Below the pieces are notes generated by a model. That model did not search any database and was not told the origin of the DNA. It saw only the letters and a program-made list of their open reading frames with translations. A stretch of DNA of 64,000 nt from Streptosporangiaceae bacterium. GTDB lineage: Bacteria > Actinomycetota > Actinomycetes > Streptosporangiales > Streptosporangiaceae. The translations under genes and the position numbers were made by a program. The DNA is taken from assembly GCA_025934375.1 (NCBI GenBank), contig JAICYD010000001.1, forward strand, positions 62,001 through 126,000, given 5' to 3'. Below, piece by piece: positions 13,471-40,560 of this stretch (positions within the stretch are counted from its first letter, which is position 1; each line of letters opens with the position of its first letter).

Positions 13471-13485
13471 AGACGCACCCTATCC

Positions 13486-13505: not shown

Positions 13506-13517
13506 TACCCCCGAGGC

Positions 13518-13582: not shown

Positions 13583-13594
13583 TACCCTTGTCGG

Positions 13595-14578: not shown

Positions 14579-14580
14579 CT

Positions 14581-16015: not shown

Positions 16016-16016
16016 T

Positions 16017-21508: not shown

Positions 21509-21599
21509 CCTTCCCCGCTTCCCCCGTCGGACACAACATTCCCACCGCAGTTACGTTACGCACTCCCGCAACTACAGTGCATCTCAACTACCACGCATC

Positions 21600-22460
21600 T
21601 CAACTTGAGTGCATCCCGGGACGGCGGGACCGGATGGCGGAGGGCCGGTGCGCCCTGGATAATGCGCTTTGCCCTAGTTTTTCCCGGTAAGCCGTCGCGC
21701 CAACCAAGACAGCCGCGTGCACTGCCCGGGCGATCCGGGCGCCCCACGGGGATCGCGGGCCCGTGAAGCCCTCGCCCTCCTCACCTGCGAGGACATGGGC
21801 GGCGGCGCGGGTCGCGACGCTGGTCGGGGCGGCTACGCAGATCGCGTCAGAGGCCGTCCCGGTGCCGGGGAACCCCGCCTCGATGACGGCCTGGGACTTG
21901 GCCTCCGTCGCGGTGACGACGGCGTTCACGAAGGCAGCCGGGGTCAGCGGGACGGGCACCGAGACGACGATGTTGATCGTCCCTGGCCGCCATCCCCCGG
22001 CCGGAGCGTCCCCTGGCCCCGCCCTTCCCCGGCCCCGGCCCCGGATCGGGGCGAGCTCGGGGTCGGGTACCCCGTCCGGGGCGGCCGCCCAGGTCGGCAC
22101 CCGAATGCCCACCGTGACCGCCGCCTGCACGCCCTCATCGCCGCGCTGAACGAGCTCAGTGACCTGCGCGGCCGTCAGCAGCCCGACGCCCGGCCCGTCC
22201 AGGCCAAGCCCGGCGGCCAGCTCCGCCAGGTGCGCCGCCGGGTCGGTCCGGCTATACCAGCCGGGGACCTGCGCGTTCAGCACCCACTGGCGTGCCCCCA
22301 GACCGCCGCCGAGCACGCCGCTCGACATCATCGTCCACCCCGGGCCGGGCCGCCACAGCGCCATGGCCAGCGGATTGGCGGCCGTCTGATCCTCGGTCGA
22401 CTGATTCTCGGCCGTCTGGTCCTCGGCAGCCTCAGTCCGCCACCGGAGCTCTACTCGCAT
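21600..22460 (-). CDS. cbiZ: adenosylcobinamide amidohydrolase CbiZ
   Basis: 286 residues. CbiZ cleaves adenosylcobinamide to adenosylcobyric acid so the cell can rebuild the nucleotide loop with its preferred base. Visible family signatures: ARQWVLNAQVPGWYSRTDP, GVGLLTAAQVTE, AAVTVGIRVPTWAAAP, PGTINIVVSVPVPLTPAAFV, VTATEAKSQAV, GTGTASDAICVAAP and GPRSPWGARIARAVHAAV. The first 30 residues contain a Gln/Asn/Thr-rich direct repeat (EDQTA.NQSTEDQTA) and may be non-conserved; starts within it are possible. Together with cobD/U/S/T it indicates remodelling of scavenged corrinoids. Confidence 0.9.
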   Translation of the reverse strand: MRVELRWRTEAAEDQTAENQSTEDQTAANPLAMALWRPGPGWTMMSSGVLGGGLGARQWVLNAQVPGWYSRTDPAAHLAELAAGLGLDGPGVGLLTAAQVTELVQRGDEGVQAAVTVGIRVPTWAAAPDGVPDPELAPIRGRGRGRAGPGDAPAGGWRPGTINIVVSVPVPLTPAAFVNAVVTATEAKSQAVIEAGFPGTGTASDAICVAAPTSVATRAAAHVLAGEEGEGFTGPRSPWGARIARAVHAAVLVGATAYREKLGQSALSRAHRPSAIRSRRPGMHSS

Positions 22461-22661
22461 GGTTCCTACAAGTACCTCACCGGTACCGCACCCCGGGCCG
22501 CCCCCGCGGCCAGGGCCAGTCAGCTCGCGATGGTCGCCGGATCCTTTGTCGACCCTCGGCTACGCCGCGATCGGCCTGGACCGCGTCGTGCACAAGGGGC
22601 GCGCCAGTGAGATGCTGTCCGGGTGGCTGGCGGATTCCGTGCCCCCTCGACCGGGGCCGTC

Positions 22662-23384
22662 GTGCGGGCAGTGCTGTTCGACACCTTCGGCACCGTCGTT
22701 GACTGGCGGTCGGGCATCGCCGCCGCCGTCGGCGGGTTCGCCGCCGCCCACGGCCTCGCCGTCGACCCCGGGGCGTTCGCCGACGCCTGGCGGGCCAGGT
22801 ACCAGCCCGCGATGCGCGCGGTCCGCTCGGGAGCCAGGGCGTTTACCGTGCTGGACGTGCTGCACCGCGAGAACCTGGACGACGTGCTGCGCGCGCACGG
22901 GCTGGACCCGGCCGGGTTCGACAGCGCGGAACTGGATGGGCTCTCCCGTGCCTGGCACTTCCTGCCGCCGTGGCCGGATAGCGTCCCGGGAATCAGCGAG
23001 ATCAAGGCCGGCTATGTCGTCGGGCCGCTGTCCAACGGGAATACCGCGCTGCTGCTGGACATGGCCAAGGCGGCGGGCCTTCCGTGGGACCTGATCCTCG
23101 GCTCGGACGTGACGCGCGCGTACAAGCCCGACGCGGCTGCCTACCGGCGCCCGGCGGACTACCTCGGCCTCGACCCCAGCCAGGTCATGCTGGTCGCCGC
23201 GCACCCCGCCGACCTTGCCGGAGCACGGGACGCGGGCCTGGCCACGGCCTTCGTCGCCCGCCCGGACGAATACGGCCCGACCCGCGCCGGCGGTGCCAGC
23301 CAGGCCACGGCCAGCGAGGCGCCTACCGCCGGGGACTGGGACTTGAATGGTGAATCAATCGTCGACCTCGCACGGCAGCTGTGA
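22662..23384 (+). CDS. HAD-superfamily hydrolase, type II haloacid-dehalogenase-like
   Basis: Cytoplasmic HAD enzyme of about 240 residues. Motif I is VLFDTFGTVVDWRSG with the nucleophile Asp; motif II GPLSNGNTALL; motif III SDVTRAYKPD with Lys; motif IV AAHPADLAGARDAGL. This arrangement is that of 2-haloacid dehalogenases, although most relatives have unknown substrates. GTG 22662 puts the first strand at the N-terminus as in the family; GTG 22623 would add 13 residues. It is divergent from cbiZ. Confidence 0.88.
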   Translation: MRAVLFDTFGTVVDWRSGIAAAVGGFAAAHGLAVDPGAFADAWRARYQPAMRAVRSGARAFTVLDVLHRENLDDVLRAHGLDPAGFDSAELDGLSRAWHFLPPWPDSVPGISEIKAGYVVGPLSNGNTALLLDMAKAAGLPWDLILGSDVTRAYKPDAAAYRRPADYLGLDPSQVMLVAAHPADLAGARDAGLATAFVARPDEYGPTRAGGASQATASEAPTAGDWDLNGESIVDLARQL

Positions 23385-23484
23385 CGATCGGGTTTCACCC
23401 AGGGTTCGCTCAGGTTATTAAGAACAAGTTAATATAAGTTTATTCTCAGGTAATTCTATGGATTTAGGACTACTTTAGCTGCGC
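23385..23484 (+). promoter_or_regulatory. AT-rich promoter region with an 11-bp direct repeat
   Basis: Between the HAD gene and the lipoprotein gene the composition falls to mostly A/T. Near-identical CTCAGGTTATT (23409-23419) and CTCAGGTAATT (23445-23455) lie 36 bp apart, about three helical turns, with TTAATATAAG between them. No SD precedes the downstream ATG. Probably the promoter with paired regulator sites. Confidence 0.4.
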
Positions 23485-24417
23485 ATGCGGAGAGGTGCCG
23501 GTATTACCATCCTGGCGGGGATTGTTACCGTTATGTTCTCTTCAGGATGCGCAGTTGTGAGCAGCGGTGCCGGCGGCGGACCGGACAGCGCCGCCAAGGT
23601 GGTCGCGAAGAAGGCGATCGCCTGGAAGGCGCCAGCCCCGAGCCCGAAGCCGAAACCGAAGCCCGAACCCGGCCCGACCGCGCAGCAGCTGGTCACCGCG
23701 GCCGTGGGGCCGCTGTTCGACGCCGACAACGACGACGCCGGCCTTGCCGTGCTTGACCTCACCACCAGCCAGTGGGTGTCCTACAACGGCAACCAGGAGT
23801 TCATCACCGCCAGCATCGCGAAGGCGGACATCCTCGCCACGCTGCTCTACCAGGCGCAGCAGGACAAGAGCTCGCTGTCGGCCCACCAGCAGAGCCTGGC
23901 GACGCTGATGATCGAAGACAGTGACAACGACGCGGCCACCGCCTTGTGGGACGACGCTGGGGAGGCGAGCGGAGTCGCGTCCGCGAACGAGGTCTTCGGC
24001 CTGAAGGACACCACGCCGGGGCCCGGCATTAAATGGGGAATCACCACCACGACCGCCAATGACCAGATCCGGCTGCTTCGCCAGATCTTCGCGACCCCGT
24101 CCAAGCTGTCCGCCTCATCGCAGGCCTACATCCGGCACCTGATGTACCACGTCTCGTCTGAGCAGGCGTGGGGCGTCCCGGTCACCGCCGACAGCGGAAC
24201 GGACTTCGCGGTGAAGAACGGCTGGCTCCCGGCCCCCAAGCTATGGGCGATCAACAGCATCGGCTCGGTCACCCACAGCGGGGACCACCTGCTCATCGCG
24301 GTGCTGTCGCACTACAACTACAGCATGGGCGGCGGGATCGCGGTCGTCCAGGGGATCGCGGCGAAGGCCGCCGACGCGGTTACTCACTACCGGCCATCGT
24401 CGTCCACGACCGGCTAA
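23485..24417 (+). CDS. class A beta-lactamase-fold serine hydrolase lipoprotein
   Basis: 310 residues. Signal MRRGAGITILAGIVTVMFSS ends in the lipobox Cys 22 (SSGC). A Lys/Pro spacer (PSPKPKPKPEPGP) leads to a penicillin-interacting fold: TASIAKADILATLL supplies the SxxK Ser and Lys, EDSDNDAA the SDN element, and AVKNGW stands where KTG would be. The non-canonical third motif and the actinobacterial pattern suggest a peptidase- or esterase-like serine hydrolase rather than a resistance beta-lactamase. It is surface anchored. No SD is visible at ATG 23485. Confidence 0.85.
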   Translation: MRRGAGITILAGIVTVMFSSGCAVVSSGAGGGPDSAAKVVAKKAIAWKAPAPSPKPKPKPEPGPTAQQLVTAAVGPLFDADNDDAGLAVLDLTTSQWVSYNGNQEFITASIAKADILATLLYQAQQDKSSLSAHQQSLATLMIEDSDNDAATALWDDAGEASGVASANEVFGLKDTTPGPGIKWGITTTTANDQIRLLRQIFATPSKLSASSQAYIRHLMYHVSSEQAWGVPVTADSGTDFAVKNGWLPAPKLWAINSIGSVTHSGDHLLIAVLSHYNYSMGGGIAVVQGIAAKAADAVTHYRPSSSTTG

Positions 24418-24453
24418 CCGCAACCGGGCCGCCTCTCGCATACGCTGGGTTCC

Positions 24454-25326
24454 GTGGCTGAGTTTGCGGCGGTGGTGCTCGCCGGCGGAAAGTCCTCGCG
24501 GATGGGGACGCCGAAGGCCGCGCTGGAATGGCACGGCGCGACGCTGCTGCACCGCACGGTCGCGATCGCGGCCCGCGCGACCAGCGGCCCGGTCGTCGTC
24601 GTCCGCGCCCCCGGCCAGGACCTGCCAGCGCCGCTTCCGGCCGGCGTCCTCGTGGTCGATGATCCCCAGGAGGGCAAGGGGCCCGTGCAGGGGATCGCCG
24701 CCGGGCTGGCGGCGCTGGCCGGCCGGGCCGAGGCCGCCTTCATCGCCTCCACCGACCTGCCGTTCCTGCACCCGGCGTTCATCCGGAGCGTGCTGCACGG
24801 GCTGTCCGCCCCTGGCACCTGCGCCCCGGACGTCTGCCTGCCAGTCGCCCGGGGCTACCCGCAGCCGCTGGCCGCCGCCTACCGGGTCAGCCTCGCGCAG
24901 ACCGCCGAGCGGCTGGTCAAGGAGGCGCGGCTGCGCCCGGCGTTCCTGTTCGCGGAGTGCCTGGTGAACCGCCTGGATGACGCCGCGCTGCGCGCGGACC
25001 CGGTGCTCGCCGCGCTTGACCCGCACCTGGACTCGCTCGTGAACGTCAACGAGCCAGCCGACTACGCCGCCGCGCGCGCCCGGCCGGCCCCCGAGGTGAC
25101 CGTCCAGATGTTCGGCACGCTGGCCCGGGCGGCCGCCGGGGCCGCGGGCCGCGGGCCGCGCGCAGTCCGCGCGGCGACCGTCGGCGAGGCGGCGGCCGCC
25201 GTGGGACTGCCGCTGGACCGGCACGTCGCGGCGGCGCTGAACGGCGACCAGATCACCCGGGATGCGCTGACCCCGCTGGCGGCCGGGGACACGGTCTTCT
25301 TCATGTCCGCCGACGCGGGCGGGTGA
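24454..25326 (+). CDS. mobA: MobA-like molybdenum cofactor nucleotidyltransferase fused to a MoaD/ThiS sulfur carrier
   Basis: 290 residues. Residues 1-200 are a MobA-type NTP-transferase: VVLAGGKSSRMGTPKAAL binds the nucleotide, and ASTDLPFLHP is the metal/GTP motif; it would convert molybdopterin to the dinucleotide form. Residues about 213-290 form a beta-grasp MoaD/ThiS domain (VTVQMFGTLARAAAG, AALNGDQITRDALTPLAAGD) ending in Gly-Gly at the true C-terminus, the feature needed for adenylation and thiocarboxylate formation. The two activities act at different steps, so the fusion is unusual. GTG 24454 lacks an SD, possibly leaderless. It overlaps the aldehyde oxidoreductase gene by 4 nt. 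Confidence 0.85.
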   Translation: MAEFAAVVLAGGKSSRMGTPKAALEWHGATLLHRTVAIAARATSGPVVVVRAPGQDLPAPLPAGVLVVDDPQEGKGPVQGIAAGLAALAGRAEAAFIASTDLPFLHPAFIRSVLHGLSAPGTCAPDVCLPVARGYPQPLAAAYRVSLAQTAERLVKEARLRPAFLFAECLVNRLDDAALRADPVLAALDPHLDSLVNVNEPADYAAARARPAPEVTVQMFGTLARAAAGAAGRGPRAVRAATVGEAAAAVGLPLDRHVAAALNGDQITRDALTPLAAGDTVFFMSADAGG

Positions 25327-27377
25327 GCCAGATGCCACCGGGCAGTCCCGAGCAGGACGCCGCCACGCGGATCGGCGGGTACTTCGGCCGGACGCTCGTC
25401 GTCGACGCGAGCGACGGATCGGCGCGGGCGATCTCGCTCCCCGAGACCGTCTTGCGCGCCTACGTCGGCGGCGCCGGGCTGGGCGCCTGGCTCCTGCACC
25501 ACCTGGCCCCGGCGGGCGCGGACCCGCTGGAACCGGGATCGCCGCTCGCCTTCGTGTTCTCCCCGCTGGTCGGCACCCCGCTGACAACGAGCGCCAAGTT
25601 CGCCGTGGTGGCCAAGTCCCCGCTGACCGGGATGCTGACCGACGCGCTCGCCTCCAGCCAGTTCGCGATCGCCGGGAAGCTCACCGGCCACGACGCGATC
25701 GTGATCACGGGCCGCGCCCGGGACCTGTCGGTGCTGCTGGTCGACGGTGACGGGGCGCGCCTCACCGACGCCGGGCACCTGGCCGGCCGCACTGCCGCCC
25801 AGGCCGAGGAGCAACTGCGAGCCGACCTAGGCCGAGGCTGGCGGATCGCGGCGATCGGCCCGGCCGGGGAGCGCGGCGTCCGGTACGCGACGATCTCCCA
25901 CGACGGGCGGCACGCCGGGCGCGGCGGGCTGGGCGCCGTCCTGGGCGCGAAGAACATCAAGGCGGTCGCGGTCCACGCCGGCGCGGGCAAGGTCCCGGCC
26001 GCTGACCCCCAGGCCGTCCTCGCGGCCGCCCGGGACCTGCGGGCGCGGTCGTTCGGCCCCGCCACGGCGAAATATCGCGAGCTGGGCACGCTGGCCAACT
26101 TGCTCGCCTTCAACGCGATCTCCGCGCTGCCGACCCGCAACTTCCAGGCCGCCTCCTTCGAGGGCGCCGAGCACCTGGCCGAGCACGAGCACGGCCAAGA
26201 GGAGCCCAGCGCCGGGATCGAGGGCATCGGGGGGGCCGGGGGCTCGTCCCCTCGGAATGTACTGCGGCGGGTCGCGCGCAGCGGCTGCGCCTCCTGCACC
26301 ATCGGCTGCGAGCACATCTACCGCGTCGGCGGCGGCAGGAAGACCCGCGTGGAGTACGAGAACGTGTTCGCCCTCGGCCCGATGTGCGGGGTCAGCGACC
26401 CGGCCGGGGTGCTCGCCGCGAGCGCGGTGTGCGACGACCTCGGCATCGACACCATCTCGGCCGGCGGCACGATCGCCTGGGCGATGGAATGCGCGCAGCG
26501 CGGCCTGATCGACGCCCCGTGGCTGCGGTTCGGCGACCCGGGCGCGCTGCTTCGCGCCCTGACGGAGATCGGCGAGCGCCGCACCCCGCTCGGCATCCTG
26601 CTCGGCAACGGTTCCAAGGCGGCCTCCCAGGCGGTCGGCGGCGGCTCCGCGGCCTTCGCCTTGCACGTCAAAGGCCTCGAGATGCCCGGCTACGAGCCGC
26701 GCACCCTGCACGCGATGGCGCTGGGCCTGGCGGTCAACGCGCGCGGCGCCGACCACAACAGGTCAGGCGCCTACGAGGCCGACCTGTCCGGTGACCTGGA
26801 CCGGCTGGCCGGCGGGGACGCGCACGTGGCCGCCGCCATCGAGACTGAGGACCGGGCCGCCGTCATGGACTCGATGATCTTGTGCAAGTTCCTGCGCGGG
26901 GTCTTCGAAGAGCCCTGGCCAGAGTGGGCGGCGCTGCTCGCCGCGGTCACCGGCTGGGACGTCACCGGCGCCGAGCTCCGGGAAGCCGCCCGCCGCATCG
27001 TCCTCGCCAAGCGCGCCTTCAACGCCCGTGAAGGCTGGCAGCCAGCCGACGACTGGCTCCCGGACCGCCTGCTGACCGAGCCGCTGACGCTCCCCAGCGG
27101 CCGTGAGGCCCGGCTCACCGCCGCCCGCCTGCGCTCGATGATCGCCGCCTACTACAAGGCCCGGGGCCTCGACGAACTCGGCTACCCCGGCCCCGCCAGC
27201 GACCCCGACCCCCACCTCCCCGCACCCCAGCGCTTATGCGGTCGTGGCCAGGCACAACGCCCGGGCCGCGATCCGCGAGGCCCGCTGGTAGATACGCCCG
27301 GGCGGGCGGGCGGATACTGGGCCTATGGCCATTACTGCCCCGGAAAGCGTGGGGACGGTAACGCTCACCATCGATGA
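25323..27377 (+). CDS. tungsten-type aldehyde ferredoxin oxidoreductase (AOR family)
   Basis: 684 residues. AOR enzymes oxidise aldehydes to acids using a bis-pterin W (or Mo) centre and one [4Fe-4S] cluster. The N-terminus GGYFGRTLVVDAS and LRAYVGGAGLGAWLL are typical. Cluster Cys are in SGCASCTIGCEH (about 320-330) and the distant LCKFLRG (about 520). The pterin-site stretch DDLGIDTISAGGTIAW and NARGADHN are present. The family portion ends near LDELGYPGP (about 620); the last 60 residues are low-complexity and overlap the next gene, suggesting read-through after a late frameshift. The gene is coupled by 4 nt to MobA-MoaD and followed by formate dehydrogenase and NAD modules that could take the electrons. 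Confidence 0.92.
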   Translation: MSQMPPGSPEQDAATRIGGYFGRTLVVDASDGSARAISLPETVLRAYVGGAGLGAWLLHHLAPAGADPLEPGSPLAFVFSPLVGTPLTTSAKFAVVAKSPLTGMLTDALASSQFAIAGKLTGHDAIVITGRARDLSVLLVDGDGARLTDAGHLAGRTAAQAEEQLRADLGRGWRIAAIGPAGERGVRYATISHDGRHAGRGGLGAVLGAKNIKAVAVHAGAGKVPAADPQAVLAAARDLRARSFGPATAKYRELGTLANLLAFNAISALPTRNFQAASFEGAEHLAEHEHGQEEPSAGIEGIGGAGGSSPRNVLRRVARSGCASCTIGCEHIYRVGGGRKTRVEYENVFALGPMCGVSDPAGVLAASAVCDDLGIDTISAGGTIAWAMECAQRGLIDAPWLRFGDPGALLRALTEIGERRTPLGILLGNGSKAASQAVGGGSAAFALHVKGLEMPGYEPRTLHAMALGLAVNARGADHNRSGAYEADLSGDLDRLAGGDAHVAAAIETEDRAAVMDSMILCKFLRGVFEEPWPEWAALLAAVTGWDVTGAELREAARRIVLAKRAFNAREGWQPADDWLPDRLLTEPLTLPSGREARLTAARLRSMIAAYYKARGLDELGYPGPASDPDPHLPAPQRLCGRGQAQRPGRDPRGPLVDTPGRAGGYWAYGHYCPGKRGDGNAHHR

Positions 27378-30280
27378 GCGTGAAGTCACCGCTACTGCCG
27401 GCTCCACGATCTACCAGGCCGCCAGGGACGCTGGCATCGACATCCCTGTCCTGTGCCACAACGACCGGTTCGATCCCGTCGGAGTGTGCCGGATGTGCGT
27501 GGTCGACGTGGGCGCGCCGGCGTTCGCCGCGTCCTGCGTGCGCGCCTGCGAGAACGGCATGCAGGTCAAGACCGATACCCCTGAGCTGCACAGTAGCCGC
27601 GCCATGCTCACCAGGCTCCTGCTGTCCGACCAGCCGCCCGCCGCGCGGGACCCCAAGGAGGTGACGACCGGCGACAACGAGCTGCTGGCCCTGGCCAGGA
27701 AGCTCGGCGTAACCCCGGACGACGTCCTGACGGCCGAAGCAGCCGCCACCTGCGACCTTGGCCTGCCGCTGGCGTCCGGGCGCGGCGCCGACCTGTCCAG
27801 CCCGGTGATCGCGGTCGACCACGACGCCTGCATCCTGTGCGACCGGTGCGTCCGGGCCTGTGACGACATCCAGGGCAACGACGTGATCGGCCGGACCGGC
27901 AAGGGCTACGGCACCCACATCGGCTTCGACCTCAACGACCCGATGGGCGCCTCATCCTGCGTCTCCTGCGGGGAATGCGTGGCCGCCTGCCCGACCGGGG
28001 CGCTGACCAACAAGCCGATCCACGGCATCCCCATCCAGCCTCGGCAAAAACTCGACGCCGTCGACAGCGTCTGCCCGTACTGCGGCGTCGGCTGCGCGCT
28101 GACCTACCTCGTGGACCGCGAACGGAAAGCGATCGCCTTCGTGGACGGCCGCGACCAGCCTGGCTCGCAAAGCAGGCTGTGCGTGAAAGGCCGCTACGGC
28201 TGGGACTACGCGGCCAGCCCGCAGCGGCTGACCATGCCGCTGATCCGCAAGGACGAGTCCTACCCCAAGGGCGCGCTGTCGGCCGACGTGCGCGGCGACA
28301 TGGCGACGGACGCCGGGCCAGACGAGCAGGACGGCCACGGCCTCGCCACCGACACCGACCCCGGCAAGCACCGCCGCGGCGGGAAGCGCGCCCGGCAGTC
28401 CCGCAAGCCAGGCGGCCTCGTCGACTATGGCGAGGTGCTGCCGCACTTCCGGGAGGCGACCTGGGAGGAGGCCCTCGACCTGGTCGCGCGGCGGCTCACC
28501 GAGATCAACACCGAGGGCGGCCCGGCGGCGATCGCCGGGTTCGGCTCCGCCAAGTGCTCCAACGAGGAGGCCTACCTCTTCCAGAAGCTCATCCGGACCG
28601 GCTTCCACACCAACAACGTGGACCACTGCACCCGGCTGTGCCATGCCTCCAGCGTCGCGGCGCTGTTCGAGGGGATCGGCTCCGGCGCGGTGTCCACCAC
28701 GTACGGCGACATCATCAACGCCGAGGTGGCCATCGTCACCGGGTCCAACTCGCCCGCCAACCACCCGGTCGCTTCCAGCTTCTTCAAGCAGGCCCGCCGC
28801 AACGGGACGACGATCATCTACGTTGACCCGCGCGCCGACAAGATGGCCGACCACGCCGACATCTACTGCCAGCTCAAGCCGGGCACCGACGTCGCCTTCT
28901 ACAACGGCGTCATGCACGAGGTCATCCGGCTCGGCCTCACCGACGAGGAGTTCATCCGGGCCCGGACCTCCAACTACGAGGCGCTCGCGGCCAACGTCGC
29001 CAACTACCCCCCCGAGCGCGCCGAGCAGATCACAGGCGTGCCCGCCGACGTGATCCGCCGCGTGGCGCGGGCCTGGGGCGGCGCGAAGGCCGGCATCATC
29101 TACTGGGGCATGGGGATCTCCCAGCACACCACCGGGACCGACAACGCCCGCTGCCTGATCGCGATGTGCGCGATCACCGGGAACGTCGGAAAGCAGGGCG
29201 CGGGCCTGCACCCGCTGCGCGGGCAGAACAACGTGCAGGGCGCCTCCGACATGGGCCTGATCCCGATGTTCTACCCGGACTACAAGAAGGCCGACGATCC
29301 CGAGGTCAAGGCGCGGTTCGAGGCAGCCTGGGGTGCCGCCGACCTTGACCCCCAGCGCGGCCTGACCGTCACCGAGATCATCGGCTCCGCGCTCAAGGGC
29401 GGGGTGCGCGGCATGTACATGCTCGGCGAGAACCCGTTCCTGTCCGACCCGAACATCAACAAGGTCCGCAAGGCCCTGTCCAAGCTCGACTTCCTCGTCG
29501 TGCAGGACATCTTCCTCACCGAGACCGCCGAGTTCGCCGACGTCATCCTGCCCGCCAGCTCCTACCTGGAGAAGGACGGCACCTACACCAATACCGACCG
29601 GAGGGTACAACTGGGCCGCAAGGTGCTCGACACCCCCGGCCAGGCCCGGGTGGACTGGGAAGTCGTGCAGGACATCGCCAACCGGATCGGCCTGGACTGG
29701 CGCTACACCAGCCCCCGGGACATCTTCGAGGAACTGGTTAGCGTGATCCCCAGCTATGCGAACCTCACATACGACAACCTCGGCCTGACCGGCAAGCTGT
29801 ACCCGAACCCGGACCCGGCCCGCACCGACGGGATCGTGGTCATGTTCACCGAAAAGTTCAACACCGACGACGGCCTGGCCCACCTGGTACCCGCCGAATG
29901 GCTGCCGGCGAAGGAGCTCCCGGACGCGGAGTACCCGTTCGTGCTGAACACCGGGCGCATGCTGGAGCACTGGCACACCGGCTCGATGACCCGGCGGTCC
30001 TACGCCCTCGACGCCATCGCGCCGAAGGCGCAGGTGTACATTCACCCTCGCGACGCGGCGGCGCTCGGCATCGGCGACGGCGAGCTGACGCGGGTGTCGT
30101 CGCGGCGCGGCACCATCGAGCTCGCCGCGAAGGTCTCACACCGCGAGGCGCCGGGCAACTGCTTCATCCCGTTCCACTTCCGAGAGGCGGCGGCGAACCT
30201 GCTCACCATCGACGAGATCGACCCCGTCGGCAAGATCCCGGAGTTCAAGTTCTGCGCGGTCAAGATCGAGCGCGTTCCCG

Positions 30281-30300
<20 letters not shown>
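27325..30300 (+). CDS. fdhA: formate dehydrogenase alpha subunit (molybdopterin, NAD-linked type)
   Basis: 991 residues. It has an N-terminal [2Fe-2S] domain (CHNDRFDPVGVCRMC, about 44-58), two ferredoxin clusters (CILCDRCVRAC about 170, CVSCGECVAACP about 212), then the catalytic bis-MGD domain with its own cluster (CPYCGVGC about 250, RLCVKGRYGW). The metal ligand is probably the Cys of DHCTRLCHAS (about residue 439), a Cys-type rather than selenocysteine enzyme. The C-terminal dinucleotide-binding part includes LNTGRMLEHWHTGSMTRRS. Residues about 325-355 are a charged insert. The protein layout matches FdsA/FdhA of soluble NAD-dependent enzymes. It overlaps both neighbours, 53 nt upstream and 20 nt downstream. 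Confidence 0.93.
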
Positions 30301-32021
<1,721 letters not shown>

Positions 32022-32029
<8 letters not shown>

Positions 32030-33281
32030 GTCCCGCGAGTTCTTCACCACCAAGACCGTGGCGCAGGCCCTGGCGGGCTTCCGGCCCGCCCGCCGCACCC
32101 CGGCGCAGACGGTCCCGCTGGCCCAGGCGCTGCGCCGGGTCACCGCGGGAGCCATCACGGCGCCGCACCCGCTGCCCGGCTTCGCCCGCTCCACCGTGGA
32201 CGGCTACGCGGTCAGGGCGGCCGACACCTACGGGGTCTCCGACGGCCTGCCCGGCTACCTGGACGTCACCGGCGCGGTCATGATGGGTCAGGAGCCGACG
32301 GTCGCCGTCCGGCCGGGCACCGCGGTGGCGATGCCGACCGGCGGCGTGATCCCGCCCGGCGCGGACGCGGTGATCATGGTCGAGTACACCACGCAAGCCA
32401 TGCCGGGCACCATCGAGGTGGTCCGCCCCGTCGCCCCCGGGGAGGGGATCGTGCGGGCTGACGAGGACCTCAGGCAAGGACAGGCTTTCCTTCGCAACGA
32501 GACCATGCTTCGCCCCCAGGATCTGGCCATGCTCGCGGCATTGGGCATCACCGAGGTCCAGGTGCGCGCGCGTCCCCGGGTCACCATCTTCTCCACCGGC
32601 GATGAGGTTGTCCCGCCGCAGACCCCCGCCTTGGCGCCGGGTCAGGTGCGGGACGCCACCGCCATAGCCCTCGCGGCGCTGGTCACCGACGCCGGCGGCG
32701 AGCCGGCCTACGCCGGTATCATCCCCGACGACCCCGGCGCGCTGGAGAAGGCCCTGAGGGACGCGCTCCCGGACAGCGACGTGGTCGTCGTCTCGGCCGG
32801 CTCCTCAGTGGGCACCCGGGACGAGACCGCCAGCGCGGTCGCCGCACTGGGCCCGCCGGGCATCTGGTGCCACGGCCTGGCGATCAAGCCGGGCAAGCCC
32901 ACCCTGCTCGCGGAATGCGGCGCCGCCGGCGCGGAGCCGGGCGTCCCGGTCATCGGCCTGCCCGGCAACCCGCGCTCGGCGCTGGTGGTGTTCCGGCTCA
33001 TCGGGATGCCGCTGATCCGGCTGGTCGGCGGGTGCGCGGCCGCGCCGCCGGACCCGTCCACGCGAGCACGGCTGTCCCGCGACCTCGCGTCGGCGGCCGG
33101 CCGGCTGGACGTCGTGCAGGTGCGGGTCCGCGATGAGGCGTCCGGCCGGGTCGCCACCCCGGTCTTCGGCGCGTCGGCGCTGCTATCGGTGCTGACCGAC
33201 GCCGATGGCTATATCGTCATCCCCGAGGAAGCCACGGGACTGGACGCCGGCAGCGAGGTGGACGTGACCCTCTATGCCTAG
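32022..33281 (+). CDS. moeA: molybdopterin molybdenumtransferase MoeA
   Basis: 419 residues, cytoplasmic. MoeA inserts molybdate (or tungstate) into adenylated molybdopterin. Signatures: LPGFARSTVDGYAVRAADT, PTGGVIPPGADAVIMVEYT, RPRVTIFSTGDEV, SAGSSVGTRDET and VIGLPGNPRSALV. It overlaps the NuoEF gene by 8 nt and is followed at 9 nt by a second MoeA-like gene, so the cofactor is probably made for the redox enzymes of this same operon, perhaps with metal choice between W and Mo. Confidence 0.95.
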
Positions 33282-33290
33282 GCGGCGCGG

Positions 33291-35210
33291 ATGAGCGAGA
33301 ACAGCCCCTACATCCGCGACGTCCCCGCCGCGCGGGCGCTGGAGGCCTGGCGGGCCGCGCGGGAGGCCGCCGGGTGCGCGGAGCGGCTGCCCGCGTGCCT
33401 GGTTCCGGTGCCAGACGCGGCGGGCCGGATCACCGCCGCCCCGGTGTGGGCGACCCGCTCGTCCCCGCCGTTCGACGCCGCCGGGATGGACGGGATCGCG
33501 GTCCGCTCGGCCGACACCGCCGGGGCCAGCGAGACCACCCCGGTGCTGCTGCCACCGGATGCCTTCGATGTCGTCGACACCGGCGACCCGATGCCTCCCG
33601 GCCGCGACGCCGTCGTCATTCGAGAAGTCGTCCACTACAGCGCCAAAGACGCCGAATTGCGGGCCGCGGTCCCGCCGTACCAGCACGTCCGGTCGATCGG
33701 CGAGGACGTCAGCGCGGGGGAGTTGCTGCTGCCGGAAGGGCACCGGCTGCGCCCGGCTGACCTGGCGGCGGCGGTGGCGGCGGGCGCGGAGCAACTGCTC
33801 GTTAGGGACCGGCCAAAGGTTGTCATCCTTCCGACCGGCGATGAAGTGCGGCCCATCGGCAGCGAACTGGCGCCCGGGGAGATCCTCGACACGAACTCCC
33901 TGATGCTGGCCGAGCAGGCGCGCGAGGCCGGGTGCGAGGTGCGCTGCCTGCCGGTCGAGCCGGATGACCCGGCGCGGATTACCGCCGTGGTCGAGCAGGC
34001 GGCGGCCGAGTGTGACCTGCTCATCGTTATCGCCGGGTCCAGCGCGGGGCGCGACGACTACACCGCGCGGGTTGTCGCCGCCGCGGGCACGCTGGCCGTG
34101 CACGGGGTGGCCGTGCGACCCGGGCACCCGGTGGTGCTCGGCGTCGTGGGCCGTACTCCGGTGCTCGGCGCTCCCGGGTACCCGGTCTCCGCCGCGCTGA
34201 CCTTCGACATTTTCGCCCTTCCGCTACTGGCGGAGCTGTCCGGCGCGCCGCCGGGGCGCCGGCCGCAAGCCCGCGCGCGGCTGGCCCGCAAGCTCGCGTC
34301 TCCGCTCGGCATGGACGACTGGGTGCGGGTCCGGCTCGGCATGGTCAACGAGACGCTGGTGGCGACGCCGCTGCCGCGCGGCGCCGGGGTGCTGACCTCG
34401 CTGGTGCGCGCCGACGGGCTGCTGGTGGTCCCGGCCGGGGTGGAGGGGCACCACGCGGGTGCGACGGTGCCGGTCGAGCTGCTGCGCGGCCTGACCGAGA
34501 TCGAGCAGACGATCGTCGCGATCGGATCCCACGACCTCGTGCTCGACCTGGCCGCCTCCGCGCTGCGGGCCGAGGACCCGCTGGTGACGCTGGCGTCGTC
34601 CAACGCGGGGTCGCTCGGCGGGCTGGTCGCGCTGCGCGACGGGCTGTGCCACGTCGCCGGGTCGCACCTGCTCGACCCCGTCACCGGCGAGTACACGCTG
34701 CCCTACCTGGACCGGGTGCTCGGCGGGGCCGCCGCCGACGCGGCCGTGATCCGGCTGGTACACCGCGAGCAGGGACTGCTCGTCGCGCCCGGCAACCCGC
34801 TGCGCCTGGGCGAGATCGCCGACCTTACCCGGTCCGGCCTGCGGTACGTCAACCGGCAGCGCGGAGCCGGGACCCGGGTGCTGCTGGACGTGCTGCTCGC
34901 GCAGGCCGGCATCGCGCCGGAGGCGGTGGACGGCTACGCCCGGGAGGAGCCGACCCACCTGGCCGTCGCCGCCGCGGTCGCCGCCGGGCGGGCCGAGGCG
35001 GGCCTGGGCATCATGGCCGCCGCCCGGGCCTTCGGACTGGGTTTCGTGCCAGTGACCCGGGAGCCTTACGACCTCGTGGTCGCGCCGGGCGCGCTGGAGT
35101 CCCCGCGCCTGGCCCCGCTGTGGGCACTGCTGCGCTCCGGCCGCTTCCAGGCGTCGGTGGAAGAGCTCGGCGGCTACTCATGTGAGGAAACGGGAAGGCG
35201 GATCCGATGA
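33291..35210 (+). CDS. MoeA-like protein fused to a PBP-type substrate-binding domain
   Basis: 639 residues. The N-terminal two thirds (about 10-410) is a second MoeA homologue: FDAAGMDGIAVRSADTAG, DTGDPMPPGRDAVVIREV, RPKVVILPTGDEV, IAGSSAGRDDYTA, VLGAPGYPVSAALTF. The C-terminal part (about 420-620) is a periplasmic-binding-protein-like domain (TLASSNAGSLGGLVAL, CHVAGSHLLDPVTGEY, REQGLLVAPGNPL, NRQRGAGTRVLLD, GLGIMAAARAFGLGFV) as found in MoeA-LysR-substrate-like fusions that may sense oxyanion or cofactor. No signal peptide, so the domain works in the cytoplasm. It ends in ATGA with the start of a tiny frame. Confidence 0.92.
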   Translation: MSENSPYIRDVPAARALEAWRAAREAAGCAERLPACLVPVPDAAGRITAAPVWATRSSPPFDAAGMDGIAVRSADTAGASETTPVLLPPDAFDVVDTGDPMPPGRDAVVIREVVHYSAKDAELRAAVPPYQHVRSIGEDVSAGELLLPEGHRLRPADLAAAVAAGAEQLLVRDRPKVVILPTGDEVRPIGSELAPGEILDTNSLMLAEQAREAGCEVRCLPVEPDDPARITAVVEQAAAECDLLIVIAGSSAGRDDYTARVVAAAGTLAVHGVAVRPGHPVVLGVVGRTPVLGAPGYPVSAALTFDIFALPLLAELSGAPPGRRPQARARLARKLASPLGMDDWVRVRLGMVNETLVATPLPRGAGVLTSLVRADGLLVVPAGVEGHHAGATVPVELLRGLTEIEQTIVAIGSHDLVLDLAASALRAEDPLVTLASSNAGSLGGLVALRDGLCHVAGSHLLDPVTGEYTLPYLDRVLGGAAADAAVIRLVHREQGLLVAPGNPLRLGEIADLTRSGLRYVNRQRGAGTRVLLDVLLAQAGIAPEAVDGYAREEPTHLAVAAAVAAGRAEAGLGIMAAARAFGLGFVPVTREPYDLVVAPGALESPRLAPLWALLRSGRFQASVEELGGYSCEETGRRIR

Positions 35211-35290
35211 CGGACGGCATGACCGATTCGCTTATCAAGCGGACCCGGGAGTTCTTCGCGGTTCGGGCCGCGCCCTGGCCCGCGCGGTGA
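35207..35290 (+). CDS. 27-residue ORF coupled to the moeA-PBP stop, likely a gene remnant
   Basis: ATG 35207 overlaps the preceding TGA in an ATGA arrangement, as expected for the next gene of an operon, but the frame ends after 27 codons (MTDGMTDSLIKRTREFFAVR and seven more). It overlaps the 3' end of the opposite-strand hydrolase gene. I do not recognise the sequence. It may be the stump of an operon gene cut off by rearrangement, or a chance frame. Confidence 0.3.
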   Translation: MTDGMTDSLIKRTREFFAVRAAPWPAR

Positions 35291-36179
35291 TCGTCTGCAA
35301 GAACGCCGTGACGGTGGCGGCGAACGCGGGCAGGGGCAGGCCCGGGCCGTTGGGGCCGACGAGGTCCCAGCCGTGCCCCGCCTGCGGGCCGAGGATCACC
35401 AGTCGCTTGCCGTGCGAGCCCACGGACGCGTACAGGCGCCTGGTGTCCTGGACCGAGATCAGCGAATCGTTGCTGGACACTGCCATCAGCACGGGGAGCC
35501 GCACTCGCGGCGCGGCAGCCTGGACCGTCGCCGGGTAGGGGCTGGTCGCCAGCGGCAGCGAGAGCTCGTCGGCCGACAGCGCCACGACGCCGGTCATCCC
35601 CGGCGGCGGGCGGGTCGCCGCGAGGAGAACCTCGGCGCCGCCTTGCGAGCCGCCGGCCAGGGCCACCTTCACCGCCCCGGACGCGCGCAGGCTGCGCACC
35701 GCGCCGTTGATGTCGGCCATCAGGCCGGCCGGGGCCTTAGCCGCCGAGCCGGGGTCCCCGGCGGGCCCCGCCGGGCAGTCGCTGCCGCCCTTGCAGCGGT
35801 GATCGATCGCCACCACGTTGAAGCCGTGGGCGGCGAGGTAGGCGGCGTACGGCCACCATCCGCAATTGCCCTCGTTGCCGCGCTCGGGGACGAGCACGAC
35901 GCCCCGGGGGCCGCTGCCGATCCTGATGGCGTCGAGCCATACCCCGTCGGTGGCCATGACCTTGGTCAGGCGGCCCGGCGCGTCGGGATATCCGCAGAGC
36001 TTGCCCACCGCCCCCGATGGCGGGGCGGCCGGCGGCGCGATGCTGGTGAGCGGGCTGCTCGCGGACGGGCTGCTCGACGGTACGGCCCCCGTACGCGCCG
36101 CTGAGCAGCCCGTCGCGACCAGGACGCTGGCGAAGGCCAGCAGCATCGCGGTTCGTGCCTTCCCTGCCTGAGCTCTCAT
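35235..36179 (-). CDS. secreted alpha/beta-hydrolase lipoprotein
   Basis: About 314 residues. Signal KARTAMLLAFASVLVATGC ends with the lipobox Cys, followed by a Ser/Pro spacer. The hydrolase core has GVVLVPERG, a Cys-containing AIDHRCKGGSDCPAG, the nucleophile elbow GGSQGG, SSNDSLISV with a likely Asp, and QAGHGWDLV with the catalytic His. ATG 36179 is chosen over GTG 36212 because the latter lies inside the operator dyad; GAGG lies about nine bases before 36179. Divergent from padR and probably controlled by it. The substrate is unknown; the fold resembles dienelactone-hydrolase-like esterases. Confidence 0.85.
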   Translation of the reverse strand: MRAQAGKARTAMLLAFASVLVATGCSAARTGAVPSSSPSASSPLTSIAPPAAPPSGAVGKLCGYPDAPGRLTKVMATDGVWLDAIRIGSGPRGVVLVPERGNEGNCGWWPYAAYLAAHGFNVVAIDHRCKGGSDCPAGPAGDPGSAAKAPAGLMADINGAVRSLRASGAVKVALAGGSQGGAEVLLAATRPPPGMTGVVALSADELSLPLATSPYPATVQAAAPRVRLPVLMAVSSNDSLISVQDTRRLYASVGSHGKRLVILGPQAGHGWDLVGPNGPGLPLPAFAATVTAFLQTITARARARPEPRRTPGSA

Positions 36180-36210
36180 GCGGGGCCGCCTCGCCGACTT
36201 CATGACCATC

Positions 36211-36232
36211 ACTATGTCTATATTGACATAGT
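36211..36232. promoter_or_regulatory. PadR-type operator between the hydrolase and padR genes
   Basis: Perfect dyad ACTATGTC-N6-GACATAGT, containing ATGT-N8-ACAT, the classical PadR half-site spacing. TTGACA at 36223-36228 within it looks like a -35 for padR, with CTAGGT/TAGGTG about 18-19 bp further on as -10. Binding here would repress padR itself and the divergent lipoprotein gene. Confidence 0.75.
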
Positions 36233-36302
36233 GGTGCGGGGCCGCGCTAGGTGGTCACTAGGGTGGAGTCAGGCATGGCTGGCCGCATTGGGGGGTTCCC
36301 GC

Positions 36303-36851
36303 ATGGTGTCGAAACTGGGCTACGCGATCCTCGCGCTGCTCGCCCGGCAGCCGAGCAGCGGCTACGAGCTGTCGGCGCGCGCTGGGCGCCCCCTGGGCTA
36401 CTACTGGCACGCCCAGCACGGCCAGATCTACCCGGAGCTGCGCAAGCTGCTGGGCGCCGGCCTGGTGAGCTTCGACGCCGAGCCCGGGCCGGGGCCGCGC
36501 GATAAGAAGGTCTACTCGCCGACCGCCACGGGCCTGGCAGCGCTGAGGGACTGGGTGATCCAGCCGCCCGAGCCCCGCCATGTCCGGGACAACCTGCTGC
36601 TTAAGGCATACGCGGCCTGGACGGTCGAGCCGGCCGACGCGGCGGGCCTGTTCGCCGGGCAGCAGGCCGCGCATGCCGAGCGGCTACGCGAGTATGAGGA
36701 GCAGCTCCGGAACGTGGAGAGCCGGCACGGCGGCGGCCCGCCGCCGGTCGGGCACCCGGAGTTCGGCAACTACGCGACGCTGACCTACGGCATCGGCTTC
36801 GAGCGGCACCGGCTCGGCTGGCTGGAGTGGATCGTCGCCCAGCTTCAGTGA
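36303..36851 (+). CDS. PadR-family transcriptional regulator
   Basis: 182 residues. The N-terminal winged helix (SKLGYAILALLARQPSSGYE, YWHAQHGQIYPELRKLLGAG, KKVYSPTATGLAALRDW) is PadR-type. The C-terminal coiled-coil dimerisation part (about 95-180) contains AAHAERLREYEEQLRNVE, typical of PadR subfamily 2 (Vir-like C-terminal domain). ATG 36303 has a G-run about ten bases upstream. It probably represses its own promoter and the divergent hydrolase through the 36211-36232 dyad, with release by an aromatic or xenobiotic ligand. Confidence 0.93.
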   Translation: MVSKLGYAILALLARQPSSGYELSARAGRPLGYYWHAQHGQIYPELRKLLGAGLVSFDAEPGPGPRDKKVYSPTATGLAALRDWVIQPPEPRHVRDNLLLKAYAAWTVEPADAAGLFAGQQAAHAERLREYEEQLRNVESRHGGGPPPVGHPEFGNYATLTYGIGFERHRLGWLEWIVAQLQ

Positions 36852-36967
36852 ACATCCCCGAATCCCGGCGTATAGCACGGTTCGGTTGATAGGGTCACCC
36901 AAGCGATCCCTTTTGATGGACTTTGCCAGAAACTGTGGAGGCGGCGATAACGGTGGCCTGGAGCTCG

Positions 36968-38584
36968 ATGACCGGACCCCGCGCAGCTGATAGCGGAATC
37001 CTGCCTGCCCACCTGGCCGGAACCGGGGAGCTGCGCGCTAACGACCCGAGGCGGATCGGCTCCTACCAGGTGCTCCGGCGGCTCGGCTCCGGCGGCATGG
37101 GGAGGGTGTACCTGGCGCGCTCACCGGGCGGCCGGGCCGTGGCCATCAAGGTGATCCGGCCTGACCTCGCCCAGCGGCGCGGATTCCGCGCCCGCTTCGC
37201 CCGCGAGGTGGCCGCCGCGCGCGGCGTGAGCGGCATATTCACCGCGGCCGTGGTCGACGCCGACCCCGAGGCGGAGTTGCCCTGGATGGCGACCGCCTAC
37301 GTCGAGGGGCCGTCGCTGGCCGACGCGGTCGAAGAGCACGGGCCGCTGCCCCCGCGGGCGGTGCTGTCCCTGGCGGCAGGGCTGGCGGAAGGGCTGCAGG
37401 CGATCCACCGGGCCGGGCTGGTGCACCGGGACCTGAAGCCGTCCAACGTGCTGCTGGCCAACGACGGGCCGCGGGTGATCGACTTCGGGGTCTCCTGGGC
37501 GGGGGAGCGGGACCGGCTGACCGACGACGGGATGACCGTCGGCTCGCCGGGCTTCCTGTCGCCGGAGCAGGCCCGTGGCCGGGAGGTCGAGGAGGCCAGC
37601 GACGTGTTCAGCCTGGGCGCGGTCCTCACCTACGCCGCCACCGGGGAGGGGCCGTTCGGCGACGGCCCCGACGAGGCGCTCATGTACCGGGTGGTGCACG
37701 AGCCGGCGGACCTGGCCCGGGTCCCGGACGAGCTGCGCTGGCTGATCGAGTCGTGCCTGGCCAAGAAGGCGGGCTACCGCCCGACCGTTCAGCAGCTGCT
37801 GGACCGGCTGACCGCGTCCGCGCCGGCGGACTCGATCGCGGCCAGCCCCGCGACCCATGACTCCGCGGCCTGGCTCCAGGCGGTCGCGGGATCAGCCAGC
37901 GGGGCGTCCATGGCCGGGCAGCCCGAGGTCGGCCCGGATGAGAGCGGTGCCCTCGGGAGCAGTGCCCTCGGGGGCAGTGCCCTCGGGAGCGGTGCCCTCG
38001 GGAGCGGTGCCCTCGGGAGCGGAGCGCCCGCGGTGCCGCGGACCGGGGACCGGCTGTCGGCGACGCATCGCGCCGTGCGGGGCACGCCCCCCGGGTCGGC
38101 GTACCCCAGCGCGGAGATGACCGCCCCGCCGCCGGAGCTACCCGAGCCTGACCGGGAGCCGGGCGCGCGCCGCTGGTGGCTGCCGCTGGTGGCGGTGGCC
38201 GCCTGCGTGGCCCTCGCCGGGGGCGCGGTGATGGCCCTGACATCGTCATCGGGCAGCCCCGCCCCGTCGCCCGTCAGCCCGCCGGCGATCATCGTGCCCA
38301 CCACGGCGGGCGCGACGCCGGGCTCGAGCGCCGCGGTGCGGCCCAGCCACGCGGTGCCCTCCCGCTCGGCCACCCGGCCCGCTGGCACGACGCCGTCGGC
38401 GAAGGCGGGGGCGGGGGCGTCCACGTCGTCCGCGCCGTCGGCCACCACACCGGCCCGGTCGTCCGCGCCCGCGACCTCACCGCCGGGCTCGACCCCGCCG
38501 ACGTCAGCCGGGCCGACCGCCACGACCGCGCCCCCCGCGCCGTCGCCGAGCGGCTCGCATTGCATCCTGTTCATCTGCAGTTAG
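36968..38584 (+). CDS. Ser/Thr protein kinase with one membrane helix and Ser/Thr/Pro-rich outer tail
   Basis: About 538 residues from ATG 36968 (GGAG four bases upstream); GTG 36953 with GGAGG eleven bases upstream is an alternative. The kinase domain (about 30-290) has LGSGGMGRVYLA, VAIKVIRPDL, LVHRDLKPSNVLL, DFGVSWA and GSPGFLSPEQ. A five-copy ALGS(S/G) repeat follows (37943-38017). One helix (WWLPLVAVAACVALAGGAVM) anchors a Ser/Thr/Pro/Ala-rich extracellular tail ending in CILFICS. The tail has no recognisable ligand domain and may span or touch the wall. Its stop lies 2 nt from the convergent histidine kinase gene. Confidence 0.9.
   Translation: MTGPRAADSGILPAHLAGTGELRANDPRRIGSYQVLRRLGSGGMGRVYLARSPGGRAVAIKVIRPDLAQRRGFRARFAREVAAARGVSGIFTAAVVDADPEAELPWMATAYVEGPSLADAVEEHGPLPPRAVLSLAAGLAEGLQAIHRAGLVHRDLKPSNVLLANDGPRVIDFGVSWAGERDRLTDDGMTVGSPGFLSPEQARGREVEEASDVFSLGAVLTYAATGEGPFGDGPDEALMYRVVHEPADLARVPDELRWLIESCLAKKAGYRPTVQQLLDRLTASAPADSIAASPATHDSAAWLQAVAGSASGASMAGQPEVGPDESGALGSSALGGSALGSGALGSGALGSGAPAVPRTGDRLSATHRAVRGTPPGSAYPSAEMTAPPPELPEPDREPGARRWWLPLVAVAACVALAGGAVMALTSSSGSPAPSPVSPPAIIVPTTAGATPGSSAAVRPSHAVPSRSATRPAGTTPSAKAGAGASTSSAPSATTPARSSAPATSPPGSTPPTSAGPTATTAPPAPSPSGSHCILFICS
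37943..38017 (+). repeat. five tandem 15-bp units within the kinase gene
   Basis: Units AGCGGTGCCCTCGGG, AGCAGTGCCCTCGGG, GGCAGTGCCCTCGGG and twice AGCGGTGCCCTCGGG, each encoding a Ser/Gly-Ala-Leu-Gly pentapeptide in the juxtamembrane linker. Being a multiple of three, copy-number change would lengthen or shorten the linker in frame. Confidence 0.9.
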
Positions 38585-38586
38585 CG

Positions 38587-39813: not shown

Positions 39814-39900
39814 CTCACCATCGTGCCTGAGAATCCCCGCGCAAGCCCATTGCCTTACGCATATCCGCCAATCCGCGCCGGCGTGAGCTACATTGCGAAC

Positions 39901-40560
39901 GTGCGAGTGATGGTGGTGGACGATCACCCGATGTGGCGGGAATCGGTGGCCCGGGACCTGGCCGAGGCGGGGTATGAGGTGGTGGCGACGGCCGCTGACG
40001 GAGCGCAGGCGCTGCGGGTCTTCGGCGCCGCCCGGCCCGATGTCGTCGTGCTCGACCTGCAGCTCCCCGGCATGTCGGGCGTCGAGGTCACCAGCGCGCT
40101 GCGCGCGGCCGATCCCGCCGTGCGGGTGCTGGTGCTATCGGCCAGCGGCGAGCAGCAAGACGTCCTCGACGCGGTCAAGGCGGGCGCCGCCGGGTACCTG
40201 CTGAAGTCCGCCGCCCGCCTGGAGTTCCTGGACGCGGTCCGGCGCACCGCCGAGGGAGACGCGGTGTTCACGCCCGGGCTGGCCGCGCTGGTGCTCGGGG
40301 AGTTCCGCCGGATGGCCGCCGCGCCCCCCGCCGCCGGCGTCGCCGCCCCCGACGTGCCGACCCTGACCGAGCGGGAGACCGAGGTGCTGCGCATGGTGGC
40401 CACCGGCCTGTCCTACAAGCAGATCGCCACCCGCCTCGTGCTCTCCCACCGGACCGTCCAGAACCACGTCCAGAACACTCTTGGCAAGCTCCAGCTGCAC
40501 AACCGCGTCGAGCTGGTCCGCTACGCGATAGAACACGGGCTCACAGAAGAGCCAGGCTAA
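39901..40560 (+). CDS. NarL/LuxR-family response regulator
   Basis: 219 residues from GTG 39901. The receiver domain (1-120) has VVDDHP, the phospho-acceptor Asp in VVVLDLQLPGM, LVLSASGEQ and AGYLLKSA. An Ala/Pro linker joins the LuxR-type HTH (LTERETEVLRMVATGLSYKQ, LSHRTVQNHVQNTLGKL). No SD precedes the GTG, so a leaderless transcript is possible. It is divergent from its cognate kinase gene across a gap of under 90 nt, so the two probably share control. Confidence 0.94.
   Translation: MRVMVVDDHPMWRESVARDLAEAGYEVVATAADGAQALRVFGAARPDVVVLDLQLPGMSGVEVTSALRAADPAVRVLVLSASGEQQDVLDAVKAGAAGYLLKSAARLEFLDAVRRTAEGDAVFTPGLAALVLGEFRRMAAAPPAAGVAAPDVPTLTERETEVLRMVATGLSYKQIATRLVLSHRTVQNHVQNTLGKLQLHNRVELVRYAIEHGLTEEPG

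Follow-up and report, generated by a model that had tools for sequence, protein, structure and literature searches.

Why should an actinomycete keep an aldehyde (ferredoxin) oxidoreductase (AOR) gene in contact with the genes of an NAD-linked formate dehydrogenase (FDH) and with four cofactor modules? This question was raised by a 64,000-nucleotide stretch of a Streptosporangiaceae bacterium (assembly GCA_025934375.1, contig JAICYD010000001.1, positions 62,001 to 126,000 of the forward strand), referred to here as the window, in which six plus-strand open reading frames (ORFs) spanning positions 24454 to 35210 encode MobA-MoaD, AOR, FdhA, NuoEF, MoeA, and MoeA-PBP. The source genome is a 7.4-Mb draft in 233 contigs and is 92% complete. 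Tungsten (W) enzymes are chiefly known from anaerobes, and tungsten has rarely been reported from aerobic bacteria. Our analysis indicated that this set of genes, the cassette, is very probably dedicated to tungsten and makes an AOR together with an FDH of the MeFDH1 type. The strict pairing of the two enzymes probably means that they work together, and we give an even chance to the whole proposal, in which two tungsten enzymes would act in series, one turning an aldehyde, for which formaldehyde is a candidate, into the acid and the other taking formate to carbon dioxide, with NAD+ as the final acceptor.

A first-pass annotation of this DNA had described six consecutive genes, overlapping or nearly touching, as an operon. 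All six ORFs were found at that place on the plus strand, and scans with Pfam and NCBIfam profiles returned the same domain identities. The features are as follows.

24454-25326, plus strand: MobA-MoaD fusion gene, MobA with a C-terminal MoaD/ThiS-type domain
24454-25068, plus strand: MobA domain (molybdenum cofactor guanylyltransferase type; Pfam NTP_transf_3, 112 bits; Foldseek matches 3ngw and 1e5k)
25090-25326, plus strand: MoaD/ThiS-type (WorX-like) domain ending in Gly-Gly (ThiS match; Gly-Gly conservation)
25323-27377, plus strand: AOR of the WOR/AOR family (AFOR_N, 199 bits; AFOR_C, 327 bits; both above the cut-offs)
27198-27377, plus strand: nonconserved C-terminal tail of AOR, containing the 53-bp overlap with fdhA (relatives end earlier; pLDDT below 50)
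27325-30300, plus strand: FdhA, MeFDH1-type FDH alpha subunit with one [2Fe-2S] and three [4Fe-4S] motifs (Fdh-alpha, 783 bits; NCBIfam cut-off, 666)
28273-28422, plus strand: cassette-specific FdhA insertion, rich in Gly, Lys, and Arg, with conserved ends
30281-32029, plus strand: NuoE-NuoF fusion, NAD/flavin mononucleotide (FMN) diaphorase subunit (Complex1_51K, 2Fe-2S_thioredx, NADH_4Fe-4S)
32022-33281, plus strand: MoeA, metal insertase with the canonical IKPGK oxyanion loop (MoeA_N, MoCF_biosynth, MoeA_C)
33291-35210, plus strand: MoeA-PBP, predicted tungstate insertase with a VRPGH loop (PRK14498, 656 bits; cut-off, 534)
about 34557-35132, plus strand: PBP_like domain of MoeA-PBP (Pfam PBP_like, 227 bits)

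In order, the junctions consisted of overlaps of 4, 53, 20, and 8 bp and then a single 9-bp gap. The contact and order of the genes were real, and the same order recurred, far beyond chance, in dozens of genomes of actinomycetes from several families; the 53-bp AOR/FdhA overlap was a property of an AOR tail (about residues 626 to 684) that is absent in relatives, which end no more than about 25 to 35 residues from the position of residue 610 of the source AOR. In most relatives, the AOR and FdhA matches were separated by a gap. The AlphaFold model of AOR had a mean pLDDT of 65.2, and the only PF01314 match in the whole source genome was the cassette AOR. A known riboswitch upstream of the operon was considered and rejected, as there were no Rfam matches at E values of up to 1 across positions 20000 to 40000.

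Co-inheritance of AOR and FdhA was examined in other genomes, with an orthologue of the cassette AOR defined as having at least 66% identity over the match. Of 341 family genomes, 32 held such an orthologue, as did 12 of 394 in the class sample and 6 of 386 in the phylum sample; with the source included, these amounted to 46 distinct genomes. The class and phylum samples were evenly drawn, and FdhA was searched in the same two samples. The same FdhA followed AOR in 44 of the 45 judgeable genomes, being the next cassette gene in 42 and coming after intervening genes in 2 (G012 and G035, in which a GntR-PBP gene and opposite-strand TupCBA-like genes lie in between). The order could not be judged in genome G691, where AOR is at a contig end, or at locus L009. 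These counts led us to reject the possibility that gene contact was a quirk of one genome. NuoEF, MoeA, and MoeA-PBP came in this order downstream of FdhA wherever the contigs were long enough. Close FdhA orthologues were present in 11 class genomes and 6 phylum genomes (the source genome in both), all of which carry AOR, and other FdhA matches in these samples had identities of 50% or less. In the samples, AOR was therefore found in 16/16 FdhA genomes and FdhA in 16/17 AOR genomes; the overlap in the class sample gave a hypergeometric P value of 1.6e-20, with kinship ignored. The first-pass annotation had named predominant separation of AOR and FdhA in relatives as one of two findings that would undo its proposal, and on this point the gene-neighborhood survey found pairing.

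A contrast set was made up of 17 loci with distant AORs, namely, 15 of the 62 phylum genomes with a distant AOR only (chiefly those listed first) and genomes G299 and G351. The latter two were among 14 class genomes that matched AOR and were excluded from the cassette AORs as too distant (37% and 29 to 33% identity, respectively). Two loci, of G769 and G770, stop at AOR, and FdhA was directly downstream of AOR at none of the 15 judgeable loci; in G894 and G952, an FDH lies about 5 kb upstream. The distant AORs of the class are located at L042 9886-11640 and on L043, and the two AORs of G351 adjoin a MoeA-like gene.

Pairwise distances of the six cassette proteins correlated with r values of 0.96 to 0.99 across 27 genomes. 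As judged from these distances, the six proteins have one common history, and since every pair reaches at least 0.96, the correlations cannot single out AOR and FdhA. When ORFs of at least 100 residues in the flanks were compared, the clusters found in at least three genera were the cassette genes, ORFs overlapping them, a Tup/regulator region, and one further cluster (five genera). The named relatives of the source AOR were Trebonia and other Streptosporangiaceae metagenome-assembled genomes (MAGs). Close AORs were also present in named isolates of Nonomuraea, Herbidospora, Microtetraspora, Actinophytocola, Amycolatopsis, Saccharopolyspora, Kibdelosporangium, and Streptomyces, where most records bear just the name aldehyde ferredoxin oxidoreductase; the genera listed are aerobic. 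A Dehalococcoidia MAG carries MobA, AOR (52% identity), NuoE, NuoF, and FdhA (33 to 44%) consecutively (L010 8948-16919), with no MoeA match in the 21.8 kb of locus sequence. With AOR and FdhA in a row in this MAG, the pairing may extend outside the phylum.

The FDH was then compared with solved proteins. The best solved match of FdhA was the alpha subunit of MeFDH1, the tungsten FDH of Methylorubrum extorquens (918 bits; next protein, 591), and that of NuoEF was the MeFDH1 beta subunit (333 bits; next, 315). Sixteen cluster cysteines and the Cys439-His440 pair were retained in 38/38 FdhA rows, and 16 is the number expected for MeFDH1 clusters A1 to A4; the MeFDH1 alpha subunit is without cluster A5 (PMC10869683). 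This alignment covered rows of at least 700 residues, with L008, G686, and G560 falling below that length, and left out five phylum genomes; at L008, the FdhA matches are in separate pieces. MeFDH1 contained tungsten, with molybdenum (Mo) below detection, and requires MoeA1, MobB, and FdhD (PMC13197769). The Gly/Lys/Arg-rich insertion, of variable length and with conserved ends, was present in 37/37 cassette rows and missing in alignments from MeFDH1 and from the Dehalococcoidia FdhA; at a guess, it could be a docking element. In G686, G012, and G035, the cassette is flanked by a second FDH in the opposite orientation, which is 31 to 39% identical and has a separate NuoE/NuoF-type match (L003/L075 4427-9170 and L033 13367-18029).

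The AOR scores place this protein in the WOR/AOR family. Positions aligned with T243, E313, Y427, and H448 of PfAOR and the four cluster cysteines were retained in 42 to 44 of 44 rows (E313 being replaced by Gln in 2), and the dimer-iron residue E332 of PfAOR was Ala in all 44. Just before the cluster Cys, the source AOR has an insertion of about 20 to 28 residues (residues about 289 to 312; window 26190-26260) that is missing in most relatives; at this site, different insertions are present in several genomes belonging to the same genus group. NAD-linked WORs carry WorS plus WorN or WorABC (PMC13328260). The recurring cassette genes included no detected WorS, WorN, or conserved ferredoxin gene, and a small-ferredoxin motif scan found none at 48/50 loci, the candidates being at G554 and L009 (the latter a Fer4 protein by Pfam, on the opposite strand upstream of MobA). 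As neither WorS nor WorN was found, membership of WOR class III or IV was rejected and the AOR is a class I WOR by gene content. For the same lack of these genes and of a conserved ferredoxin gene, NuoEF is the only visible NAD/flavin module in the cassette, in agreement with the first-pass view that an NADH/FMN module was the only obvious acceptor. Either FdhA/NuoEF or a housekeeping ferredoxin could accept the electrons of AOR; free ferredoxin is the acceptor of class I WORs, the aerobic BmWOR among them (PMC13328260, PMC9424855).

The AlphaFold model of MobA-MoaD had a mean pLDDT of 90.8, and its best Foldseek matches were MobA structures. The MoaD part scored 20.1 bits against Pfam ThiS (cut-off, 22.5) in the whole fusion and 23.7 bits alone, and its terminal two glycines were at least 90% conserved in the alignment; in G012, its counterpart is a stand-alone gene ending in GG (24.5 bits). 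The occurrence of a MoaD gene next to AOR genes was described in 2006 and linked to the tungsten cofactor (PMC1779556); the name WorX was given to it in 2026 (PMC13328260). The oxyanion loop of MoeA was KPGK in 32/33 rows, and that of MoeA-PBP was RPGH in 28/30 rows and KPGH in 2/30, with G012 counted twice among the MoeA rows due to its locus being in two pieces. The MoeA-PBP family has been proposed to insert tungsten and co-occurs with TupA in 86% of cases, at the same locus in 28% (PMC11733289). TupABC-like genes, resembling those of a tungstate transporter, and GntR-PBP_like genes adjoin the cassette in 10 genomes of five genera (G315, G523, G528, G552, G509, G012, G035, G417, G418, and G469); in G424, the GntR-PBP regulator is accompanied by weaker matches to TupB and TupC. 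Regulators of this GntR type, whose C-terminal PBP_like domain is akin to that of MoeA-PBP, adjoin the cassette in 11 genomes (for example, at L032 15417-16637 and L033 5667-7322) and may sense tungstate. When 22 cassette genomes were searched whole, TupA was found in 11 (beside the cassette in G523 and elsewhere in 10), with none of the 22 above the curated cut-off. Due to the similarity to MeFDH1, the Tup genes beside cassettes, and the presence of MoeA-PBP, the most fitting reading of the locus is a cassette dedicated to tungsten, and both enzymes are predicted to carry this metal.

AOR cofactors carry no nucleotide. In the proposed scheme, the MoaD part would supply dithiolene sulfur, MobA would make the bis-molybdopterin guanine dinucleotide form of the cofactor for FDH, and MoeA-PBP would channel tungstate into molybdopterin. 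AOR would then oxidize an aldehyde to the acid, formaldehyde to formate being a possible case, and the FdhA clusters, followed by NuoEF, would relay electrons from formate to NAD+. If AOR yields formate, FDH is the natural next step. The least certain elements are formaldehyde as the AOR substrate and the entry of AOR electrons into the FdhA/NuoEF relay rather than a housekeeping ferredoxin. The scheme draws on gene order, domains, cluster and active-site residues, the AOR-FDH pairing, and the adjacent tungstate-uptake-like genes, all of these being read from sequence.

Several observations weigh against this scheme. The best solved match of AOR was PfAOR, a broad enzyme, at 291 bits, versus 258 bits for the formaldehyde enzyme, and no recurring C1 gene was seen among flanking ORFs of at least 100 residues. 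The sole exception to the pairing, G051, has the cassette AOR and no FDH over the cut-off; downstream of its AOR are an ORF without a Pfam match and then a nucleotidyltransferase/phosphoglucomutase gene. TupA was not found in the source genome, one of 11/22 cassette genomes without it, and the binding protein of G315 matched TupA, its only NCBIfam match, with 225 bits against a cut-off of 400. None of the cassette members has a known metal or activity, and the pairing could come from a shared cofactor alone. FdhD was also undetected in a search of the source genome.

FdhD was likewise undetected in 7 of 30 other cassette genomes (G432, G417, G469, G424, G069, G068, and G051) and present in 23. 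A recheck with protein queries gave the same absence in all eight and matched 5/5 positive genomes, two of them only partly. With G051 set aside for having no FDH, seven FDH-bearing genomes, including the source, were without detected FdhD at completeness levels of 92 to 99%. At least 11 of the 23 genomes with FdhD (G433, G431, G397, G012, G035, G531, G528, G053, G521, G553, and G554) have an FdhD gene no more than about 4 kb from another FDH-like gene. In G433, FdhD is beside a second FDH-like gene; in G432, neither was detected, and the cassette is retained in both. According to a review, fdhD is missing in some FDH-containing organisms (PMC10609526). As such absence has already been noted elsewhere, the missing FdhD is a lead and not a contradiction, and the contrast between G432 and G433 is a natural experiment on the maturation of such an FDH in the absence of FdhD.

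The joint complex suggested by the first-pass annotation, in which AOR docks on FdhA and electrons pass via the FdhA Fe-S chain and NuoEF to NAD+, so that one diaphorase serves two tungsten sites, is possible but doubtful. It would account for a strict pairing of what are usually direct neighbors and for a cassette with no WorS, WorN, or conserved ferredoxin gene, and a cassette-only FdhA insertion could dock the partner. Diaphorase subunits are used by further NAD-linked WORs (PMC13328260), and a solved AOR, 9mqx_D, is in the same entry as a NuoF-type chain. However, the known NAD-linked WORs need WorS, a small cluster subunit that is not found here, class I WORs use free ferredoxin, a housekeeping ferredoxin could serve AOR, and the distance correlations, being equal across the six proteins, do not favor this one pair. 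A wired complex may be compatible with the series pathway, and the likelihoods given to the two therefore do not sum to one. It is rather unlikely that two unrelated tungsten enzymes are kept together only by common cofactor genes. The four cofactor domains and the Tup genes beside some copies do speak of a common need, and G051 retains AOR without this FDH, but shared supply predicts one-enzyme loci, and among the sampled genomes only G051 of 17 with AOR was without FDH and 0/16 with FDH were without AOR.

It is improbable that FDH uses molybdenum and only AOR tungsten, with MoeA (IKPGK) serving the former metal and the PBP fusion (RPGH) the latter. The two loops are consistently different, TupA was not found in the source genome, and M. 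extorquens separates molybdenum from tungsten through MoeA paralogues (PMC13197769). However, FdhA is nearest to a tungsten-only FDH, and the IKPGR loop plus an Ala of the M. extorquens tungsten insertase (PMC13197769) is shared by neither cassette MoeA. A pair of loops resembling that of the cassette, IQPGK and IRPGR, is found in MoeA structures 1uz5 and 1xi8, from Pyrococcus. Pyrococcus uses tungsten and retains two MoeA proteins, and with a cassette that looks dedicated to tungsten, both MoeA proteins may serve this metal. The earlier suggestion that the two separate tungsten from molybdenum is therefore doubtful, although the PBP-fused protein, with its divergent loop, does fit a tungsten insertase (PMC11733289). 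Least probable of all is a sixth kind of WOR, in which AOR would dock on FdhA via the basic insertion, share an Fe-S/FMN relay to NAD+, and take formaldehyde to carbon dioxide within one two-site complex, the FDH cofactor being sulfurated without FdhD, perhaps by MobA-MoaD. The preferred reading remains a tungsten cassette with its two enzymes in series.

The neighborhood of the cassette in the window contained further genes. A Beta-lactamase2-family gene (23485-24417, same strand) ends 36 bp upstream and is not in the gene clusters recurring beside the cassettes of other genomes. Cobalamin genes lie further upstream (13412-17810 and 21600-22460), encoding CobD/CbiB, CobU, CobS, and a nitroreductase-DBI_PRT (CobT-type) fusion, with CbiZ on the other strand of this region, and a GGDEF-EAL protein of 1,070 residues is encoded on the minus strand at 18296-21508.

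Each part of the cassette belongs to a known family; no description of the AOR-FDH pairing was found in the literature searched, and no word starting with "actino" occurs in the main text of PMC13328260. A 2022 report presented BmWOR as the first tungstoenzyme, and the first WOR, of a strict aerobe (PMC9424855). Aerobic tungsten biology would be widened by a unit that, in culturable actinomycetes, joins two predicted tungsten enzymes to a cofactor line of their own, and such a unit would allow a genetic test of which MoeA chooses tungsten. The cassette suggests an NAD-linked route joining aldehyde and formate oxidation, and such a pairing would enable the oxidation of a small aldehyde to carbon dioxide by means of tungsten.

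The closest known systems each share some features with the cassette and differ in others. The cassette FDH resembles MeFDH1 in its four alpha-subunit clusters without A5, its NuoE-NuoF fused beta subunit, and its Cys-His active site (PMC10869683) but here always comes with an AOR and has the extra basic alpha insertion; MeFDH1 needs FdhD (PMC13197769), whereas seven genomes with the cassette FDH have no detected FdhD. Like the class I WORs PfAOR and BmWOR, the cassette AOR consists of one large subunit, retains the catalytic and cluster residues of AORs, and has a ThiS-like WorX nearby; unlike them, it is paired with an NAD-type FDH, has WorX fused to MobA, and has Ala in place of E332. With the class III and IV WORs (AaAOR and AmWOR1), the cassette shares an AOR near a flavin/NAD module but lacks WorS and WorN, and its diaphorase belongs to the FDH. 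The archaeal-type MoeA1 (PBP fusion)/MoeA2 pair with TupA is similar in having adjacent MoeA genes, one of them PBP fused, and TupA is linked to the cassette in some genomes; the bacteria named for that system in the excerpts of PMC11733289 are anaerobic or facultative, whereas the cassette pair is found in actinomycetes, inside an AOR-FDH unit.

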